Source of the DNA: Tenacibaculum dicentrarchi
Lineage (GTDB): Bacteria; Bacteroidota; Bacteroidia; Flavobacteriales; Flavobacteriaceae
Direction: 5' to 3'
NCBI RefSeq assembly: GCF_964036635.1
Contig: NZ_OZ038524.1
Span: forward strand, 2,237,001 to 2,301,000
Length of the DNA: 64,000 nt
Each line of letters starts with the position of its first letter. Within the stretch, counting starts at the first letter, position 1. The notes beneath the pieces were generated by a model. The model ran no database searches and had not been told where the DNA came from. It was given only the letters and a program-made list of their open reading frames with translations. Below are positions 28,219 to 62,397 of the stretch, piece by piece. A program made the translations under genes and the position numbers.

Positions 28219-29814
28219 ATGAAATATCTACCTTTATTAATCTTATTATTTACATGTAAAATAACCTTGTATGGGCAAGTTAAAGTTAAGTATAAAAATA
28301 AAAAATCAAATATAAATATATCTTCAATAGATATTGCTAAATTTAAAGCTAATAGATTTGTACATTATAGCGACTTTGGTGCTATAGGAGATGGTAAAAC
28401 AGATGATATAAATAATATTTCAGCAACTCATAAATTTGCTAATAAGCATAATCTTACAGTTAAAGCTGATGATGGAGCAACATATTATATTTCAGGAAAA
28501 AAACAGCCTATAAATATTTTAACTGATACTGATTTTGGAACAGCTAATTTTATTATTGATGATACAGAAGTTAAAGATATTAAATCATCTATTTTTCTAG
28601 TTAGTTCTAAACAAAAACGTTTTAAAATTGAAGGAATATCTTCACTTAAAAAAAATCAGAAAAAAATTAAGGCTAACCTACCTAAAAACTGTTTAGTTAC
28701 TATTAAAAATTCAAATATAAAACGCTACATCAGATATGGAGCCAATAAAAACAATGGAGCTTCTCAAACAGATATTCTTCTTGTAGATAAAAATGGAAAT
28801 ATAGATACTCCCGTAATATGGAATTTTGATAAAATAACAAAAATAACCGCTTTACCTATAGATGAAAAACCTTTAAAAATAACAGGAGGTTGTTTTACAA
28901 CAATTGCAAATAAAGCTCCATCTAAATACACTTACTATAGTAGAAACATTATAATTAAACGGTCTAATGTTATTGTAGATGGTCTTGAACATAAAATTAT
29001 AGGTGAAGGAAGTCATGGTGCGCCTTATGCAGGCTTTATTAGTATTCGTGACTGTGCTAATGTAACTGTAAAAAACACAGTTCTATCTGGACACAAAAAA
29101 TATGTAACTATTAACTCAAATGGAAAACATAGTTCAATGGGCTCTTATGATATTTTAATAACACGTGCTGTTAATATATCATTTATAAATTGTACCCAAA
29201 CAAATGATATTAATGATAAAAAGTACTGGGGAATTATGGGAGCTAACTATTGTAAAAATATTATTTATGATAATTGTACTCTTTCTCGATTTGATGCTCA
29301 TATGGGAGTTGCTAATGCCACTATACAAAACTCAACACTCGGACATATGGGAATTAGTGTTATTGGTACTGGAATTTTAACTATTAAAAATTCTACTATT
29401 TACGGAAACAACCTTGTAAATTTACGTTCTGACTACGGTAGTACATGGCAAGGTGATATCATTATTAATGATGTAATTTTCTCACCTAGTAAAAGAAAAT
29501 CTAATAATATTAATTTAATTGGAGGGGAAAATTATGGAAGACACAATTTTGGTTATACCTGCTATATGCCTAAGCGAATCACTATAGAAAATCTTTATAT
29601 TGATGATTCAAAATACCCAAAAAATTATGAAGGCATTAATATTTTTTCAGATTTCAATCCAAAAATATCTAACCTTTTTTTCGATGAAGAATTTCACTAT
29701 ATCACAACAAAAAAGGTATTTCTAAAAAATGTAACTACAGCATCAGGAAAACCTCTAAACGTTAGTGATAACAAAACGATGTTCAAAAAAGTAAAAATAA
29801 AATATAGGAAATAA
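28219..29814 (+). CDS. Secreted right-handed beta-helix protein
   Basis: 531 residues with a signal peptide (cleavage near LYGQ). The early motif DFGAIGDGKTDDINN is the entry of the pectate-lyase-3 / tailspike-type beta-helix fold. It is followed by repeated coils such as ISIRDCANVTVKNTVLSGHK, NISFINCTQTND and TIQNSTLGHMGISVIGTGIL. Proteins of this fold often cleave polysaccharides or bind glycans at the surface. No catalytic residues can be assigned, so enzyme versus binding protein is open. No SusC/SusD pair is nearby. It ends 3 nt from the convergent aat gene. Confidence 0.8.
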   Translation: MKYLPLLILLFTCKITLYGQVKVKYKNKKSNINISSIDIAKFKANRFVHYSDFGAIGDGKTDDINNISATHKFANKHNLTVKADDGATYYISGKKQPINILTDTDFGTANFIIDDTEVKDIKSSIFLVSSKQKRFKIEGISSLKKNQKKIKANLPKNCLVTIKNSNIKRYIRYGANKNNGASQTDILLVDKNGNIDTPVIWNFDKITKITALPIDEKPLKITGGCFTTIANKAPSKYTYYSRNIIIKRSNVIVDGLEHKIIGEGSHGAPYAGFISIRDCANVTVKNTVLSGHKKYVTINSNGKHSSMGSYDILITRAVNISFINCTQTNDINDKKYWGIMGANYCKNIIYDNCTLSRFDAHMGVANATIQNSTLGHMGISVIGTGILTIKNSTIYGNNLVNLRSDYGSTWQGDIIINDVIFSPSKRKSNNINLIGGENYGRHNFGYTCYMPKRITIENLYIDDSKYPKNYEGINIFSDFNPKISNLFFDEEFHYITTKKVFLKNVTTASGKPLNVSDNKTMFKKVKIKYRK

Positions 29815-37596: not shown

Positions 37597-37647
37597 CAAA
37601 ATATTTGTAAATTCGTAACTTTCCTTAATAAACTCAATTTTTAAATA

Positions 37648-38058
37648 ATGAAAAAAATATTTTACCTTTTTATTTTAATAATTACCATCAGCTGTTCTGA
37701 TAATGTACCTGTTAATAATTGTTTTACAAGTATAGAAATGAATACAATTATCGATTTAACATTACCAGAATTTCAAGGATTATTAGTTCCTAATGGTAGC
37801 TCTCAAAATAAAATTCAAGGTCGTAATATTTTTATTTTTAGAACAGGAACTAACGGTTATAAAGCTTTTGACCAACAATGTCCTGAAAATAATTGTGCTG
37901 ATTTAATGTCTTTTGATGGAGTTCATATTAAATGTCCTTGTGATAATAAAAAATACAATTATTTAACTAACGGAGCACCTATTGATAACCAAGGATGTAG
38001 TGCTTTAATGTATTTTGTAACACCTATTAATAGCTCACAATTAAGATTATCTCGTTAA
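37648..38058 (+). CDS. Rieske-like lipoprotein lacking the iron-sulfur histidines
   Basis: 136 residues with a lipoprotein signal (ITISCSDN). The fold-level pattern of a Rieske ferredoxin can be traced: FDQQCPENNC, then IKCPCDNKKYNYLTNGAPID, then a final beta part. But the CxH...CxxH ligand pairs are replaced by CPENNC and CPC, so the two histidines are absent and five cysteines remain. A [2Fe-2S] Rieske centre is therefore unlikely. The protein may bind another metal or keep only the fold. It is divergent from greA and upstream of purK. Confidence 0.75.
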   Translation: MKKIFYLFILIITISCSDNVPVNNCFTSIEMNTIIDLTLPEFQGLLVPNGSSQNKIQGRNIFIFRTGTNGYKAFDQQCPENNCADLMSFDGVHIKCPCDNKKYNYLTNGAPIDNQGCSALMYFVTPINSSQLRLSR

Positions 38059-38085
38059 TTTTATTTATACTAGACTTAAGATTCT

Positions 38086-38093
38086 TATTTTTG
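38086..38093 (+). promoter_or_regulatory. Bacteroidetes -7 promoter element of purK
   Basis: TATTTTTG, 31 nt before the TTG start of purK. Confidence 0.5.
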
Positions 38094-38124
38094 CGGTAAC
38101 AACAACATATTAAAATATTTATCC

Positions 38125-39282
38125 TTGAAAAATTATTTTTCTTCAGACTTTAAACTGGGTGTTCTCGGTGGCGGTCAATTAGGTAGAATGCTACTTACCG
38201 AAACACAAAAATTTGATATTTACACCGTTATTTTAGGTGATAACAACGAAGCGCCTTGTGCACAAATTTGTAATGAATTTCATCAAGGTGACTTATTTGA
38301 TTTTGATACCGTTTACAATTTCGGTAAAAAAGTAGATGTATTAACTATTGAAATAGAAAATGTTAATATTGATGCACTTGATAAGTTAGAAGCTGAAGGT
38401 TTAACTATTTTTCCAAAACCTGCTAACTTAAGAATTATTCAAAATAAAGCACGTCAGAAAACTTTTTATAAAGAAAACCAAATTCCTACGGCTGATTTTT
38501 CTCGTTTTGCTTTTGTTGATGAATTAAAAAAAGCATACGAAAACAAACTTATTGAATTTCCTTTTGTTTGGAAAGCAGCACAATTTGGTTATGATGGTAC
38601 AGGTGTAAAAGTTGTTCGTAATTCTGATGATTTACAATCTTTACCTGAAGGTGAATGTATTGCTGAAAAATTAGTCCCTTTTAAAAACGAATTAGCTGTT
38701 ATAGTTGCTAGAAATTCTGATGGCGATATCAAAACATATCCTGTCGTTGAAATGGAATTTCATCCAGAAGCAAATCAGGTTGAATATGTTATTTGTCCTG
38801 CTAGAATAGATGAATCAGTAGCTAAAAAAGCACAAGAAGTTGCTTTAAAAGTTGCTAAAACTTTAGACTTCGTCGGATTATTAGCTGTTGAAATGTTTCA
38901 AACTTCAACTGATGAAATTTTAGTAAATGAAGTAGCTCCACGTACTCATAATTCTGGACATTATTCAATTGAAGCAAGTTATACCAATCAATTTGAACAA
39001 CATTTACGTAGTATTTTAAACCTTCCTTTAGGAAATACCGATAGTAAAGTTGCCGGAATTATGGTAAATTTAGTTGGTGAAGAAGGATATACAGGTGATG
39101 TTGTGTATGAAAACATGAGTACAATTTTAAAAATTGATGGTGTTACTCCACATATTTACGGAAAAAAGACTACAAAACCTTTCCGAAAAATGGGACACGT
39201 AACAATTGTTAATGAAGATATTGATATCGCAAGACAAGTTGCACAACAAGTAAAAGAAACAATTAGAGTTATTAGTAAATAA
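38125..39282 (+). CDS. purK: N5-carboxyaminoimidazole ribonucleotide synthase
   Basis: 385 residues beginning at TTG (38125); KNYFSSDFKLGVLGGGQLGRML follows at once, so no better start exists. ATP-grasp enzyme: GGGQLGRM (nucleotide-binding N-domain), FVWKAAQFGYDGTGVKV and NEVAPRTHNSGHYSIEA (metal site). It carboxylates AIR with ATP and bicarbonate in purine synthesis, upstream of PurE. purK and purE are here separated by two unrelated genes in the same direction (21-nt gap to the first). Confidence 0.96.
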   Translation: MKNYFSSDFKLGVLGGGQLGRMLLTETQKFDIYTVILGDNNEAPCAQICNEFHQGDLFDFDTVYNFGKKVDVLTIEIENVNIDALDKLEAEGLTIFPKPANLRIIQNKARQKTFYKENQIPTADFSRFAFVDELKKAYENKLIEFPFVWKAAQFGYDGTGVKVVRNSDDLQSLPEGECIAEKLVPFKNELAVIVARNSDGDIKTYPVVEMEFHPEANQVEYVICPARIDESVAKKAQEVALKVAKTLDFVGLLAVEMFQTSTDEILVNEVAPRTHNSGHYSIEASYTNQFEQHLRSILNLPLGNTDSKVAGIMVNLVGEEGYTGDVVYENMSTILKIDGVTPHIYGKKTTKPFRKMGHVTIVNEDIDIARQVAQQVKETIRVISK

Positions 39283-39303
39283 TATTTTTATTCAACTCCA
39301 AAA

Positions 39304-40578
39304 ATGAAGATTTCAAAATTAAAAATAGCACAGTATAAACACCTAGAAAATCTAGATTTTGATTTTACCTATCAAAGTGGAGAACGAAAAGGTGAGCCTT
39401 TAGATAAAATTTGTTTTATTGGGCAAAGTGCTACTGGAAAAACTAATTTACTGGAGTTGTTATTTTCGAAAATAGAACAAGCTTTAAATCAAGAGGTAAT
39501 TGATGAAACTCTTTATTCTATAAATAATTTTACAAAACAATTAAAAGGTGAATTGATTATAAATTTCAAAAATGATATTTATAAAATTAAAAATGAAGTA
39601 ACTACTTATAAAGAGCTTGAATATAAACAGATGATGGGAAATGGAGGTGGAATGGTAGGTCATTTAATTCCTTATAGCCATAAATCAAATCTCTTATTTT
39701 TCAAAGCAAATATTATTTCAGATGAAAATATTGAAGTATTTACAGAAAACCCTATAAATTTAATTGAAAAATATCCTAGTATAACCAATGATGATGCCGA
39801 TAAATTAATTCACATTTTTGATAATAAGGTTTCAAAAGAAATATTGTTATCACTTATAAAAGACATTCTTGAGTACAGGAAAAAGTTTACTCAAAAAATG
39901 TCGGAACTGATTCATAAAGGTTTATTAAATGACCAAAAAAAATTAAGTATTGAGTTTTCAAAATGGCAAAAAGAAAACCCTAATAAATTAATGGAATTTG
40001 CTGATAAATTTAATCCGTTATTAGAAAAATTAAATTTAGAAGTTGACTTAGTTAATACCGAATATTCCATTCCTATCATCAATAAAAGAAATGAAGAAAT
40101 AATTCCGATACAACACACAAGTACTGGAACTAAAGGATTATTACTTTCTTTTTTGCCGTTATTCAAATTAAATACCAAAGATGCAATTATATTAATGGAT
40201 GAACCTGAGCGTTCTTTATATCCTGATATGCAAATGTCTTTGATGGAAAATTATCAAAACCTTGCTCCAGATGCGCAGTTTATTGTAGCCACACATTCTC
40301 CTTTTATTGCTGCTTCTTTTGAACCTGAAGAACGCTTTATTTTATATTTTGATACCGATGGAAAAGTTGCTGTTAAAAGAGGAAGTTCTCCTATTGGCGA
40401 TGACCCAAACGATATGTTAAAAAATGATTTTGGAATTAATTATTACAATAAACACGGGCAAAATGCTTACAAAAAATACCTGAATTTAAAACAGGCTATT
40501 CCAAAGGAAAAAGATACTGAAAAGAAGAAAAAGATGCTTTTTGAATTTATGAAACTAGGAGATACTTATAATTTTTAG
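39304..40578 (+). CDS. AAA/ABC-type ATPase, PtuA-like (putative Septu-type defence)
   Basis: 424 residues, no signal peptide. SMC/OLD-type ABC ATPase: Walker A GQSATGKT (40-47), ABC signature-like STGTKGLLLS before Walker B AIILMDEP (294-301), and H-loop ATHSP (His331). The region between holds long helices (coiled-coil arm). A short C-terminal helical tail follows. It has no TOPRIM domain, so it is not an OLD nuclease. It lies 2 nt upstream of an HNH-type gene, the pairing of PtuA with PtuB in Septu-type anti-phage systems. Both sit between purK and purE. The defence role is inferred from family and pairing. Confidence 0.78.
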   Translation: MKISKLKIAQYKHLENLDFDFTYQSGERKGEPLDKICFIGQSATGKTNLLELLFSKIEQALNQEVIDETLYSINNFTKQLKGELIINFKNDIYKIKNEVTTYKELEYKQMMGNGGGMVGHLIPYSHKSNLLFFKANIISDENIEVFTENPINLIEKYPSITNDDADKLIHIFDNKVSKEILLSLIKDILEYRKKFTQKMSELIHKGLLNDQKKLSIEFSKWQKENPNKLMEFADKFNPLLEKLNLEVDLVNTEYSIPIINKRNEEIIPIQHTSTGTKGLLLSFLPLFKLNTKDAIILMDEPERSLYPDMQMSLMENYQNLAPDAQFIVATHSPFIAASFEPEERFILYFDTDGKVAVKRGSSPIGDDPNDMLKNDFGINYYNKHGQNAYKKYLNLKQAIPKEKDTEKKKKMLFEFMKLGDTYNF

Positions 40579-40580
40579 GT

Positions 40581-41177
40581 ATGAAAAGAAGCATAAAAAA
40601 AGAGGATTCTAAAATTCTAAAAGAAAACTTAAATTATATTGTTGGAAATTCTGCAAATAATAAAAAAATTTCTAATATTTTATACAAAGAGCAAAAAGGA
40701 TTTTGTGCTTATACAGAAAAATATATTGGCAGAACAGATGCGAAAGATATCGAGCATTTTAACCCAACATTAAAAGGAAAAGAAGCTGATTCTTATCAAA
40801 ATTGGTTTTTAGTAAAACATCAATGGAATAAAGAAAAATCTTCTAAATGGGAGAAATTTCAACCTATTTTACATCCAACAGATGCCACTTTTGAAGATAG
40901 AATTTTATACCAAGATGGTCATTATTTTTTAGCAGATGCAAACGATATTGAAGCTAAAAATCTTATTGATTTACTTCAATTAGATGACCTTCTTTTAGCA
41001 GAGGAAAGAAAAAAATATATAAAGAGAAAAGAAGTATATATTAAACTTTCTGGTAAATCTGCAACTATTTTCTTTGAAACATTAATTAATGACGATATTA
41101 ATGCTGTTAATTATTTAAGAGCTATCAACGAAGAATTTAATATCAATATTTGGGAATTACTTCCTGAAATTCAATAA
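40581..41177 (+). CDS. HNH-like nuclease, PtuB-like (zinc ligands altered)
   Basis: 198 residues. The N-terminal part follows the retron-associated/PtuB HNH pattern: KGFCAYTEKYI, then DIEHFNPTLKG with the catalytic His59, then YQNWFLVKHQWNKEKS supplying Asn74 and Asn83. The usual zinc-binding CxxC pairs are changed: C42 pairs with T45, and the second pair is H80 with W82. The rest is helical and uncharacterised. It starts 2 nt after the ATPase stop and ends 25 nt before purE, so all are probably one transcript. Likely the effector of the pair, by inference. Confidence 0.75.
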   Translation: MKRSIKKEDSKILKENLNYIVGNSANNKKISNILYKEQKGFCAYTEKYIGRTDAKDIEHFNPTLKGKEADSYQNWFLVKHQWNKEKSSKWEKFQPILHPTDATFEDRILYQDGHYFLADANDIEAKNLIDLLQLDDLLLAEERKKYIKRKEVYIKLSGKSATIFFETLINDDINAVNYLRAINEEFNINIWELLPEIQ

Positions 41178-41202
41178 AAAAACAACACAAAAACATAAAA
41201 TT

Positions 41203-41682
41203 ATGGTAGGTATTATAATGGGAAGCGATTCAGATCTTCCAATCATGCAAGAAGCAATCGATATTTTAGAAAGCTTTGATATCAAAATAGAAGTAGATAT
41301 TGTTTCTGCTCACAGAACTCCTGAAAAATTAGTTGATTATTCTAAAAATGCCCACAAACGTGGAATTCAAGTAATTATTGCAGGTGCAGGTGGAGCGGCT
41401 CATTTACCAGGAATGGTAGCATCTATGAGTCCGTTACCAATTATTGGAGTTCCTGTAAAAAGCAGAAATTCTATTGATGGATGGGATTCTGTTTTATCAA
41501 TATTACAAATGCCAGGAGGCGTACCAGTTGCAACTGTTGCTTTAGATGGTGCTAAAAATGCAGGTATTTTAGCAGCTCAAATTATTGGTGCTTCGGATGC
41601 TACAATTTTAGATAAAATTATCGCTTATAAAGAAGAATTAAAACTAAAGGTTGAAAAAGCGTCTGAAAGAGTACGTAAATAA
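41203..41682 (+). CDS. purE: N5-carboxyaminoimidazole ribonucleotide mutase
   Basis: 159 residues. GIIMGSDSDLPIMQEA, SAHRTPEKLVDY and AGAGGAAHLPGMVASMSPLP are the substrate-binding signatures of class I PurE. It moves the carboxyl group of N5-CAIR to form CAIR. Last gene of the purK operon, followed by a strong terminator. Confidence 0.97.
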   Translation: MVGIIMGSDSDLPIMQEAIDILESFDIKIEVDIVSAHRTPEKLVDYSKNAHKRGIQVIIAGAGGAAHLPGMVASMSPLPIIGVPVKSRNSIDGWDSVLSILQMPGGVPVATVALDGAKNAGILAAQIIGASDATILDKIIAYKEELKLKVEKASERVRK

Positions 41683-41704
41683 AAAGTAAATCTTTATAAA
41701 TATC

Positions 41705-41740
41705 AAACCTCATCAATTTTAAAAATTGGTGAGGTTTTTT
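41705..41740. terminator. Terminator between purE and yoeB
   Basis: AACCTCATCAATTTT / AAAATTGGTGAGGTT hairpin followed by six T; it lies directly before the convergent toxin stop codon. Confidence 0.85.
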
Positions 41741-41742
41741 AC

Positions 41743-42000
41743 TTAGCGGTAATGATAACGACAAGCTGCTATTAATAGTTGTTCATTTTCGTATTTATAA
41801 ACCAATCGATGTTCTGATGTTATACGCCTTGACCAGTAACCTTGTAAATCACCTTTTAAAGCTTCAGGTTTTCCGATACCTTCAAAAGGTGTTCGCATAC
41901 AGTTTTTAATAAGTTCATTAATTCGCTTTACTATTTTCTTATCGACTTTCTGCCAAAATAAATAATCTTCCCAAGAAGAAGTAGACCACGTTAATTTCAT
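41743..42000 (-). CDS. yoeB: YoeB-type ribosome-dependent mRNA interferase toxin
   Basis: 85 residues, the YoeB length. SWEDYLFWQKVDKKIVKRIN, IGKPEALKGDLQGYWSRRIT and SEHRLVYKYE are the family blocks, and the C-terminal CRYHYR supplies the catalytic His/Tyr end. YoeB cleaves mRNA at the ribosomal A site. It directly follows the antitoxin gene with no gap and is convergent with purE. Confidence 0.94.
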   Translation of the reverse strand: MKLTWSTSSWEDYLFWQKVDKKIVKRINELIKNCMRTPFEGIGKPEALKGDLQGYWSRRITSEHRLVYKYENEQLLIAACRYHYR

Positions 42001-42249
42001 CTACTCGATTAAGTTTTTTTGAACACCTTTGTATTGCTCAAGTTCTTTGATAGAATTTAACAAAATATCTCTGTTTTTTCCTGTTAACAAATAGGTCGTT
42101 TCCTTTAATGAGTTATATTCATCCAATGATATTAAAACTAAATCTTTACCGTTTTTACGCTTGATAATGATATCACTTACATCATTGACTACTTTATCAA
42201 ACCAAAATTTTAAATTTGAACGAAAGTCTGTATAATTTACTATTTCCAT
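42001..42249 (-). CDS. yefM: YefM/Phd-type antitoxin
   Basis: 82 residues from the ATG at 42249 (MEIVNYTDFRSNLKFWFDKV). A TTG further up lies inside the promoter and is rejected. The N-terminal Phd/YefM DNA-binding fold includes IIIKRKNGKDLVLISLDEYNSL; the C-terminal part wraps the toxin. It neutralises YoeB and normally represses its own promoter with it. The promoter here carries GTAC-core inverted repeats. Confidence 0.92.
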   Translation of the reverse strand: MEIVNYTDFRSNLKFWFDKVVNDVSDIIIKRKNGKDLVLISLDEYNSLKETTYLLTGKNRDILLNSIKELEQYKGVQKNLIE

Positions 42250-42250
42250 A

Positions 42251-42290
42251 GTACAAATATACAAAAAAGTACTTAAAAAGGTACTTTTTT
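42251..42290 (-). promoter_or_regulatory. yefM-yoeB promoter and GTAC-core operator
   Basis: A minus-strand TATATTTG element (42254-42261) ends 4 nt before the ATG. A perfect 10-bp inverted repeat AAAAAAGTAC / GTACTTTTTT with an 8-nt spacer (42263-42290) and a third GTAC (42251-42254) overlap it. E. coli YefM-YoeB recognises palindromes with a TGTACA core, so these are likely autoregulation sites. Confidence 0.68.
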
Positions 42291-59796: not shown

Positions 59797-61107
59797 TTAT
59801 GGAATACGAACAGTTTCACCAATCCAACATCCAATTTTATGCGTTGCTCCTGAAGCAACTCCTTTTTGGAATACTAATTTTTTTGATGGCATATTTTTTC
59901 TATAGCTAGCAATATATCTATTAGCACCACATCCTGGATCTACTTTACTCGCTTTTAAAGCTTTGTTTAAAGCAGCTACATATACCATTCTTTTTTCAAA
60001 TTCATCAGCACCACAAGAATTGGCACTTCTTTGATATAAACTTGCGATAAATAAATATGCTTTCCCCATGTTTGGGTTATATTTTAACGCTTCATACGCT
60101 AAAGCTCTTCCTCTATTTCCTCCTGCACTTTGTGCTTCTCTTAATTTATATTTTGCCTTTTTAAATGGGTCTGTTTCTAAATCAAAAGCTTTCTTTTTCA
60201 TTTGAGTAGCTCCATTTTTATCACCATTTTTAGCTAAAACTCCTGCTAAGAAATTGTAAGCATCAGCCGATTGTGTTGTTTCAGCATATGAATTTGCTAA
60301 CTTTTCAAATAAAGGGTCTGTTTGACATCCTTTATTATACATTCTTGAAACAGCTCTTTTTAACCAAACTCCATCGGTTTTATTTTCTTCATAATCTCTA
60401 GTATAAATAGGGATTAATCGTTCACAAGTTGCTATTTTAGAAATCATAGCATCTAAACCTCCTTCTACTTGTCCTAAAGCAGTAGAATTAATTGTAAAAG
60501 CTTTTAAATTTCTTTTTTCTCTAGCTCCAATAGTTCCTAAAGAATCTTTCAATTGTAATTTTGATACTTTTTTATTGTAATCTTCTAATTTTTCATTAAC
60601 AGACTCCATTACATCATCATAAGTATCAAAAACTTTTTGAGGATTTGTATCTTTGTTTGCTTCTGCTGTTGATTTAAAGTATCTAAAAATATTTTTTACT
60701 CCCATATCTTTAGGAGAAATATCGTATGCTTTTTTCAGATACACAAAAACCTCTTGGTCTGTAGCTAATTTATTTTTCACTAAATAAGTTGCGTAATCAC
60801 TATGTGCTTTTGCAGCACCTTTTACAGGAAAATTTAGTAACCTCGCTTCATAAATTCTTTTAGCTAAGACAGGATCTTTTGTTTTACTTGCTATTTTAGA
60901 TCCGTATTTATAAATATTAACAGATAATTTTGGGCAATTTGTTAATAAGTATTCTAAACTTATTTTGGCAGCATCATACTTACCTGTTTTTGTGTCTCCT
61001 TTAAAAAGGTTGTACTTCATGTTACACTCTTGACTTGCTTGCGCCTTGACACCGTTTACTGCCACAAACAAAAATAATCCTGTTAGCAAATACGTAATTT
61101 TCTTCAT
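59797..61107 (-). CDS. Periplasmic TPR-like repeat protein
   Basis: 436 residues with a signal peptide (cleavage near NGVKAQ). Repeated helical pairs of tetratricopeptide type, such as YDAAKISLEYLLTNCPKLSV, YAETTQSADAYNFLAGVLAK and MGKAYLFIASLYQRSANSCG. A C-terminal non-repeat part has four Cys-containing or conserved stretches (MVYVAALNKALKASKVDPGC). Probably a scaffold for envelope assembly. It lies 9 nt upstream of lptC and 21 nt downstream of the outer-membrane protein gene. Confidence 0.82.
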   Translation of the reverse strand: MKKITYLLTGLFLFVAVNGVKAQASQECNMKYNLFKGDTKTGKYDAAKISLEYLLTNCPKLSVNIYKYGSKIASKTKDPVLAKRIYEARLLNFPVKGAAKAHSDYATYLVKNKLATDQEVFVYLKKAYDISPKDMGVKNIFRYFKSTAEANKDTNPQKVFDTYDDVMESVNEKLEDYNKKVSKLQLKDSLGTIGAREKRNLKAFTINSTALGQVEGGLDAMISKIATCERLIPIYTRDYEENKTDGVWLKRAVSRMYNKGCQTDPLFEKLANSYAETTQSADAYNFLAGVLAKNGDKNGATQMKKKAFDLETDPFKKAKYKLREAQSAGGNRGRALAYEALKYNPNMGKAYLFIASLYQRSANSCGADEFEKRMVYVAALNKALKASKVDPGCGANRYIASYRKNMPSKKLVFQKGVASGATHKIGCWIGETVRIP

Positions 61108-61128: not shown

Positions 61129-62397
61129 TTAATCTATTTTTCTTTTATGAAACCACTTAGTACTATTCAAAGATAAACTTAATCGAACATTAAAATATTT
61201 TTCTTTTATTAAGTTATTACTAACTGTTCCTTTTTGCCCGTACTCTAAGCCAATATTTACATTCGATAATTGTCTTGGCAATGGCAATCCTAATCCAACA
61301 TTTATGCCAAAGTCTTTTATTTCTGTAAAATCAGTACCTGTTTGCATTAATAACCCTGTATCTTCAAAACGCAAACCAGCCCTATAAGTAACTCTTTTCC
61401 AGTAGCTTGATATTGAATTGATTTTAGGAATATAATATCCTCCTATTGACAACCTACTTGAATCATCATATTTATATTGGCTACCATCAGCGGCTAAATT
61501 ATTATCGGTATTTAGAGCACTTTTAAATTCTTGATTAACTCCTACATACCACTTATTTTCTTTTCCTAAACCAAAACCAAAAATACTTTTCATAGGAGTT
61601 GTTACGTTTCCGTTAACAGATTTATCAAAAAACTGCTTTTTTTCTGATTCTTTCCCTGAAACATTTAAAATAATTGAAGACATCTTTTTGTTTCCATCAG
61701 TCGATAAATCACTTTTAACAACAAAAGAAGCACCTGTATATAGGTTTATTTTATCATTCAAAAGAGTTTTATATTGTGCTCCAAATTTAAAAACACCACC
61801 TCTTACATCTATTTTATCTTGATATTTTGTAGCTAAAGGAAGTCCGTTTTTTTGATAGATTACGTTATTTTCTAGGTTTCCAAAAACATAACCTGCTTCA
61901 ACTCCAACAGAAAGTCCTTTAATTATATAAGTACCAAAACTAGCATATATTTTGTTTGTTCCCCCTTCGCCTTTAAAAGAAGTTATTTCATCTTTATTTT
62001 CCGTATTTAATAATGAATATCCTACAGATGTAAATGGCTGTAAACCTACCGATAACCCTGCTTTTTTACCTACAGGAAACCCTAAAGAAACATATCGTAA
62101 ACTTGTTGAACTCCCCGAACTTGAAGTATTTTCTTTTTGTAGTGTTAAAAAATTTGAACTAGCTCCAATGCCATAAGTAGCAACTCTTAAAGATGCATTT
62201 GCTGCTGGATTTACAAAGTTTAAATGATGCATATCATTTAAAGCAACTCCAATTCTTCCCATAGAAACATTTTCTACAGTTGCTCCTTCAAAAGTTTCAC
62301 CAATTCCAAAATAAGAATAAGGCGAAGCACTATTTCTTTGTGCAAATGTTGTTATTGCACTTAATACAAGTAATACTGATATAAGTTTCTTAATCAT
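61129..62397 (-). CDS. Outer-membrane beta-barrel protein
   Basis: 422 residues with a signal peptide (cleavage near TTFAQ). Begins like FadL/PorV-type barrels: NSASPYSYFGIGETFEGATV, then amphipathic strands throughout, ending in NVRLSLSLNSTKWFHKRKID. The ATG overlaps the end of coaX by 8 nt. The substrate is unknown. Such proteins next to coaX and lptC recur in Flavobacteriaceae and may take part in envelope biogenesis. Confidence 0.8.
   Translation of the reverse strand: MIKKLISVLLVLSAITTFAQRNSASPYSYFGIGETFEGATVENVSMGRIGVALNDMHHLNFVNPAANASLRVATYGIGASSNFLTLQKENTSSSGSSTSLRYVSLGFPVGKKAGLSVGLQPFTSVGYSLLNTENKDEITSFKGEGGTNKIYASFGTYIIKGLSVGVEAGYVFGNLENNVIYQKNGLPLATKYQDKIDVRGGVFKFGAQYKTLLNDKINLYTGASFVVKSDLSTDGNKKMSSIILNVSGKESEKKQFFDKSVNGNVTTPMKSIFGFGLGKENKWYVGVNQEFKSALNTDNNLAADGSQYKYDDSSRLSIGGYYIPKINSISSYWKRVTYRAGLRFEDTGLLMQTGTDFTEIKDFGINVGLGLPLPRQLSNVNIGLEYGQKGTVSNNLIKEKYFNVRLSLSLNSTKWFHKRKID

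Follow-up and report, generated by a model that had tools for sequence, protein, structure and literature searches.

A predicted type I Septu module between purK and purE in Tenacibaculum dicentrarchi and the recurrence of its relatives at the same site in Flavobacteriaceae

A stretch of 64,000 nucleotides from the genome of Tenacibaculum dicentrarchi (contig NZ_OZ038524.1, positions 2,237,001 to 2,301,000; hereafter the window) carries the two genes of a Septu-type defense module, ptuA and ptuB, between the purine genes purK and purE. The four genes are co-directional on the forward strand: purK at 38125-39282 (ATP-grasp and PurK_C by Pfam), ptuA at 39304-40578 (424 aa), ptuB at 40581-41177 (198 aa), and purE, encoding aminoimidazole ribonucleotide (AIR) carboxylase (Pfam AIRC), at 41203-41682. 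The spacers are 21 nt between purK and ptuA, 2 nt between ptuA and ptuB, and 25 nt between ptuB and purE. A first-pass annotation, made from the letters of this DNA, had described the pair as a PtuA/PtuB-like ATPase-HNH module; its coordinates, strand, and gap lengths were exact on re-reading, and the profile search that it proposed and a comparison of predicted folds upheld the Septu assignment. The PtuA profile of PADLOC matches the ptuA product with 580 bits, and the PtuB1 profile PDLC00347 matches the ptuB product with 262 bits. These matches span the full length of both proteins, and chance similarity is therefore excluded. Pfam recognizes AAA_15/AAA_21 in PtuA, and HNH_4 in PtuB marginally (22.2 bits with a cut-off of 22).

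Structures of PtuA and PtuB were predicted as single chains. The best matches of the PtuA model are solved PtuA structures, at an identity of only ~14%, while those of the PtuB model are the PtuB proteins of retrons Ec78 (E 5e-4) and Ec83 (E 0.02 and 0.05), followed by the HNH domain of NmeCas9. The catalytic residues listed in the first-pass annotation are in place: Walker A (GQSATGKT, residues 40-47), Walker B (IILMDEP, 295-301), and H331 in PtuA, and H59, N74, and N83 in PtuB. Among the close relatives that form one PtuA clade with the window protein, K46, D299, E300, and H331 are unchanged in 31 of 31 PtuA sequences (window included), and H59, N74, and N83 in all 30 PtuB open reading frames (ORFs), recovered from 30 of the 31 clade loci. 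With a PtuA-type AAA/SMC-like ATPase, an adjoining PtuB-type HNH nuclease, and intact Walker A/B and H-N-H residues, 39304-40578 and 40581-41177 are, as judged from sequence and predicted fold, a type I Septu module. Its antiphage activity can be inferred by analogy with characterized systems. The residues near the last catalytic Asn of PtuB vary, with HQWNKEKS, HKPNNLKR, HLPNQRKT, and others among the PtuB proteins of loci L148-L166 and L092-L097. The G+C content is 27.2% in ptuA and 25.5% in ptuB, versus 31.1% in purK, 35.2% in purE, and 29.5% in the window.

The module resembles type I Septu systems such as the E. coli Septu 8eea and Septu EcB88 (PMC13096335) in its adjacent ATPase and HNH genes, fold, and Walker/HNH residues. 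It differs in the low identity to solved PtuA, the near confinement of its clade to purK-purE, the presence of a hypervariable segment, and, in the genus of the window, the lack of a promoter box of its own. The PtuA/PtuB effectors of type I-A retrons (Ec78/Eco7 and Ec83) have the same folds and are the best structural matches; a retron was nevertheless rejected, because no reverse transcriptase lies between purK and purE and the cut-offs of the NCBIfam equivalogs are not reached. Rfam gave no match between 35000 and 45500 up to E 1, and thus no msr/msd RNA was detected there; PADLOC found no retron match in eight nearby genes. Gabija consists of GajA, an OLD-type ATPase with a TOPRIM nuclease domain, and the helicase GajB, and it was rejected because Pfam gives no TOPRIM in the ATPase of the window and the partner is an HNH_4 protein. 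In PARIS, the TOPRIM-like effector AriB stands beside AriA; this was rejected as well, since the partner here is an HNH protein and AriA profiles reach ~75 bits versus 580 for PtuA.

The PtuA clade comprises at least 31 distinct loci after removal of duplicates, and 30 of the 31 listed lie between purK and purE. A close PtuA was found in 5 of 146 genomes of the window's genus (Tenacibaculum, Polaribacter), where the next match is partial and 29% identical, and in 2 of 397 genomes of the family (the window and G351). Among 299 Flavobacterium-type genomes, 20 had a match beyond E 1e-20; 19 of these belong to the clade, 18 of them between purK and purE. A scan of named genomes gave at least 11 real loci, each located between purK and purE; five were equal to loci already collected and were counted once, and L098, a match of 46 residues, was excluded. 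The ATPase of G639 (32% identical, outside the clade) was excluded from the 31 loci. The lone exception within the clade is the pair of G669 (L168, 8121-10024), which lies between ribBA-like and pepT-like genes, as named by eye. The clade thus settles almost only in the purK-purE spacer in Flavobacteriaceae, across several genera. In three loci (L092, L097, and L165), an extra small gene accompanies the Septu pair within the same gap. Other observations concern single loci: the purK-purE gap of the G669 genome holds an AhpC/TSA-like gene (by eye); in L152 (G581) ptuB looks damaged, its C-terminal part alone matching; the purK frame beside the pair of L064 (G119) has one in-frame stop; and the G639 pair (L169, 7180-9192) is a distant ATPase-HNH pair elsewhere in a Flavobacterium-type genome.

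The spacer receives other cargo as well. In the window's genus, 136 purK-purE pairs were compared, leaving out 2 of 138 purE rows that had no purK on the same contig. As had been assumed in the first-pass annotation, the two genes are usually adjacent: 113 gaps are at most 130 nt and one is 162 nt, while 22 measure 321-3718 nt. The gap is an empty 43 nt in G122, a genome of the same genus; the Septu pair of the window is cargo in this gap, as had been proposed. A control gene pair (window 61132-62397 and 59800-61107) showed no gap above 300 nt in 138 cases from the same genomes, versus 22 of 136 for purK-purE (Fisher p 8e-8); its spacing is 13-31 nt in 137 cases and 256 nt in one, where the upstream match is truncated. 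Weaker second matches of the first control protein and the rows of G073 and G108 were dropped from this count, and 4 of 142 rows of the second gene were unpaired. The 22 long gaps hold Septu (5), a RhuM-Fic protein (6, and 2 truncated), a 59-aa ORF with Fic/Doc (2), a ~205-aa protein with no Pfam match (4), arginase (1), DUF4395 on the other strand (1), and a helix-turn-helix protein with a D12 methyltransferase and an AlwI-type endonuclease (1). The RhuM-Fic protein matches the PADLOC profile PDC-S23 with 415 bits, PDC presumably standing for "phage defence candidate". Septu, RhuM-Fic, Fic/Doc, or restriction-modification genes thus occupy 16 of the 22 long gaps, as is characteristic of a core defense hotspot.

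Cargo is also found in Flavobacterium-type genomes, where the distance between the purK and purE matches exceeds 300 nt in 33 of 139 pairs and 600 nt in 16 (3 of 142 rows left out). The 16 longest hold Septu in seven cases, ParE-type and PemK/MazF-type toxin-antitoxin pairs in two each, AhpC/TSA-like genes in three, a 198-aa protein with no Pfam match in one, and mixed content in one. Contents were read for 24 of the 33 gaps above 300 nt (18, and six more with Septu), the other nine spanning 301-376 nt; eight shorter ones (366-461 nt) hold single small ORFs, one of which resembles the antitoxin of a ParE pair by eye. The Pfam scan covered one representative each of RhuM-Fic, Fic/Doc, the ~205-aa protein, PemK, and the AhpC/TSA-like genes, and two of ParE. 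PADLOC was also applied to the RhuM-Fic, Fic/Doc, and ~205-aa representatives, and other cargo was assigned by eye from translations.

Phylogenetic trees were compared for 28 of the 31 loci, leaving out G119, whose purK frame is broken, G581, for which a ptuB ORF could not be recovered, and G669, where ptuA has no purK/purE next to it; conflicts were judged from supported branches. L163 and L165 are sisters in the ptuA tree (98/97), while they belong to separate groups in the purK+purE tree (100/100 and 97/98). The partner of L159 is L166 in the ptuA tree (100/99), while it is L162 in the purK+purE tree (100/99). The trees of the module and its flanks therefore conflict, which indicates that the module moves, yet it returns to one slot. 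The finding that would have counted against cargo status in the first-pass annotation, occurrence of the pair in every relative together with a housekeeping phylogeny, is contradicted both by this conflict and by the rarity of the pair. Ancestral vertical inheritance, with a single Septu entry into purK-purE in an ancestor of the family, later losses, and locus conservation as mere synteny, is unlikely. It would account for 30 of 31 loci being at one place, for the ptuA rows of the window's genus forming one clade (95/90), and for a weak correlation between the distances of the ptuA core and those of purK+purE, above most permutations (r 0.25). However, it needs very many losses, because sampling found the clade in only 5 genomes of 146, 2 of 397, and 19 of 299, and it is at odds with the conflicting branches, the G669 copy located elsewhere, and the ptuB distances, which are unrelated to those of purK+purE outside the window's genus (r 0.05, a value reached in 606 of 2000 permutations).

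One comparison bears on the putative route of transfer. The window and G122 share 99% identity in PurK, versus 76% and 90% in two control proteins, while for G018 the values are 92% in PurK versus 91% and 94% in the controls. The DNA identity between the window and G122 is 95.1-98.3% in the covered bins of 36-44.4 kb and 81.3-94.7% in all other bins with coverage between 24 and 64 kb. For G018, the identity to the window is 84.6-89.1% from 36 to 39 kb. The simplest reading of these identities is that the purK-purE neighborhood was exchanged by homologous recombination. By eye, both ends of the empty spacer can still be recognized beside the window insert.

The TAnnTTTG motif has been reported as the sigma-A -7 box in F. 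psychrophilum (PMC9723704). The only TAnnTTTG on the forward strand of 37600-42200 is TATTTTTG at 38086-38093, starting 39 nt before purK, and it is a candidate -7 box of a purK promoter. After purE, a terminator-like hairpin with a 15-pair stem lies at 41705-41737 on the forward strand; the region has 2 such sites versus 1.7 expected in shuffles, and it is taken as a likely terminator because of its stem and position. Since the sole box precedes purK and the hairpin follows purE, the simplest inference is that ptuAB of the window is read from the purK promoter, in a putative purK-ptuA-ptuB-purE transcript. Across the clade, 23 of 31 loci have a -7 box whose first base lies 22-24 nt before ptuA, while shuffles reach at most 2, and the G669 copy, away from purK-purE, also has its own box. 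Six of the eight loci with no box before ptuA belong to the window's genus. In its two Polaribacter copies, what appears to be the same leader reads TAAATTAG or TAATTTAG; in its four Tenacibaculum copies, the leader before ptuA is gone. This suggests that the promoter box decayed in Polaribacter and was lost in Tenacibaculum, with capture of ptuAB by the purine operon. The interpretation of the first-pass annotation, that inserted Septu cargo uses the promoter of the purine operon, therefore holds in part: the Septu module, its cargo status, and use of the operon promoter in the window are supported, the last as the simplest inference, while operon dependence as a general rule is not, and it looks derived in the window's genus because 23 of 31 loci have their own box. 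Expression that follows purine demand, also proposed there, is a prediction. A Bacteroidetes-type two-box pattern had 7 matches in the whole window versus 5.8 expected and carries no weight alone, whereas the positional test before ptuA does; sigma-70-type sites (23 found versus 28.4 expected) were not above chance.

It is quite unlikely that functional coupling explains the site, that is, that the module stays because its output or sensing gains from following the purine supply (PtuA uses ATP). The loss of the promoter box in the window's genus would fit such coupling, as would the tight embedding of other cargo there: among 16 co-directional non-Septu inserts (G057, on the opposite strand, is outside this number), 12 begin at most 25 nt from the purK stop, including four with a 4-nt overlap, and a -7 box occurs in the 60 nt ahead of 3. 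However, the box in most loci speaks against purine coupling as the cause of this location, unrelated cargo occupies the same slot, and no Rfam element was detected between 35000 and 45500. A site-specific mobile element inserting the module at purK-purE is very improbable: one preferred site across genera and the diverse cargo there would suit it, while the window insert is ptuA and ptuB alone with no recombinase, cargo types and junctions vary, the 150-nt stretches around both insert ends share no direct word of 8 nt or more, by which flanking direct repeats as a sign of such insertion were rejected, and the longest inverted word at the ends (10 nt) is within the range of shuffles. The insert of G056 has a 143-aa ORF on the other strand, which was read by eye as a remnant of an insertion sequence and had no Pfam match.

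A segment of PtuA, residues 53-131 (39460-39696, forward strand), is hypervariable. Ten PtuA alleles from T. dicentrarchi, T. finnmarkense, and T. piscium, with species names as given in their source records, were compared (P0022, whose N-terminal part is missing, was excluded). The mean pairwise identity in the segment is 46.8% (lowest 13%), among alleles drawn from a database clustered at 90% identity, which favors unlike alleles; elsewhere it is 98.5% (residues 1-52), 93.4% (132-152), 64.6% (153-180), and 95.6% (181-424). In the segment, the window protein is 21% identical to P0010 of T. dicentrarchi and 81% identical to P0003 of T. finnmarkense, and all 15 pairs among the six T. finnmarkense alleles are below the latter value (37-70%). 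At the DNA level, the window and the same-species genome G135 are 48% identical over 39475-39654; the 90-nt bins bordering this stretch reach 83 and 78%, those beyond them 99-100% on either side, and the rest of purK and ptuA 93-100%. Conservation across 78 wider homologs is lowest at residues 61-120 and 161-180. In the PtuA model, the segment makes up the last part of the Walker A helix and the beta strands after it, at 64-110. AriA, a structural relative of PtuA, was solved with Ocr (8v45), and a sensing role is therefore a fair guess; residues 53-131 would be the best candidate for the part that meets a changing trigger.

Two features of the window lie apart from the module. A YefM-YoeB toxin-antitoxin pair follows purE directly (41743-42264, reverse strand; Pfam YoeB_toxin and PhdYeFM_antitox); it is present in G122 and was not found there in two T. 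finnmarkense strains, G135, and G008. The region of a 531-aa ORF at 28219-29814 is present in the same-species genome G135 and mostly missing at that place in G018, G122, and G008 (10-19% of bins covered).

Taken together, the preferred account, to which a probability of about 0.72 is assigned, is that of a type I Septu whose clade spreads between species into purK-purE by recombination in the flanks and whose promoter was lost in the window's genus. Several observations weigh against it. The NCBIfam equivalogs, named for retron Ec78, are far from reached (PtuA 46.9 of 500 bits, PtuB 33.4 of 150 bits). L096 and L097, outside the window's genus, also have no promoter box. The correlation of the ptuA core (residues 1-52 and 181-424) with purK+purE is equaled in 35 of 2000 permutations, and outside the window's genus it is r 0.34 (36 of 2000), so that some vertical signal remains. 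A single recombination tract was looked at, between the window and an empty-site genome, and it is clear only over ~36-43 kb, given an identity of 94.7% in one bin beyond it and equal similarity of G018 and G122 to the window at 43-45 kb. One control pair was used, spaced more tightly (13-31 nt) than purK-purE. Finally, the slot is not defense-only, since 6 of the 22 cargoes in the genus are not defense-like.

In the preferred account, the PtuA clade would spread between species and lodge almost solely between purK and purE; homologous recombination in these two conserved flanking genes is the most likely means of delivery. The core operon would be a small landing slot, also for toxin-antitoxin, RhuM-Fic, and restriction cargo. 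Most copies would bring their own promoter, while in the window's genus, after its decay or loss, ptuAB would most simply be read with purK-purE. For Septu EcB88, the accessible text reports that ATPase and HNH residues are both required and that the variable loop of tRNA-Tyr is cut during infection (PMC13096335), and another Septu is reported to act on DNA, as cited in the accessible part of PMC11555353. The same two-part logic is expected here, on the model of the Septu and retron PtuAB that have been studied: PtuA would detect infection, its hypervariable segment meeting the changing trigger, and license PtuB to cleave a nucleic acid (in those systems tRNA-Tyr or DNA), which would stop phage growth.

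Conserved flanking core genes with swapped defense cargo are likewise described in the accessible text on the P. aeruginosa core defense hotspots cDHS1/2 (PMC10250203), for which transfer through conserved flanks was suggested, and on E. coli hotspots (PMC10121019). Those are regions of median 6 or 26 kb, whereas the slot described here is the spacer of two consecutive purine genes, and its cargo is limited to few, small genes, with gaps of 321-3718 nt in the window's genus. Septu was listed earlier in the genome of T. larymnensis (PMC10013915), with purK and purE unmentioned in the accessible passages. No literature describing the purK-purE site was recognized in a search whose coverage largely excludes subscription papers and in which "purE" also matches "pure".

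Descriptions of defense genes usually place them in islands carried by mobile elements. A joint reading, advanced tentatively as a possibility, is that purK-purE may be an intra-operon defense socket of Flavobacteriaceae, where small immune modules would be swapped through two universal housekeeping genes with no mobile element and Septu would be the main long tenant. In one genus, the module would have started as cargo with its own promoter and become a promoterless member of the operon, and PtuA residues 53-131 would be an exchangeable recognition segment that recombines both inside a species and across species, in the manner of a specificity cassette for phage triggers. The empty, self-promoted, decayed-promoter, and operon-embedded states would form a compact natural series for how immune modules move and become domesticated, and the hypervariable segment would make the trigger of Septu directly testable through natural allele swaps.
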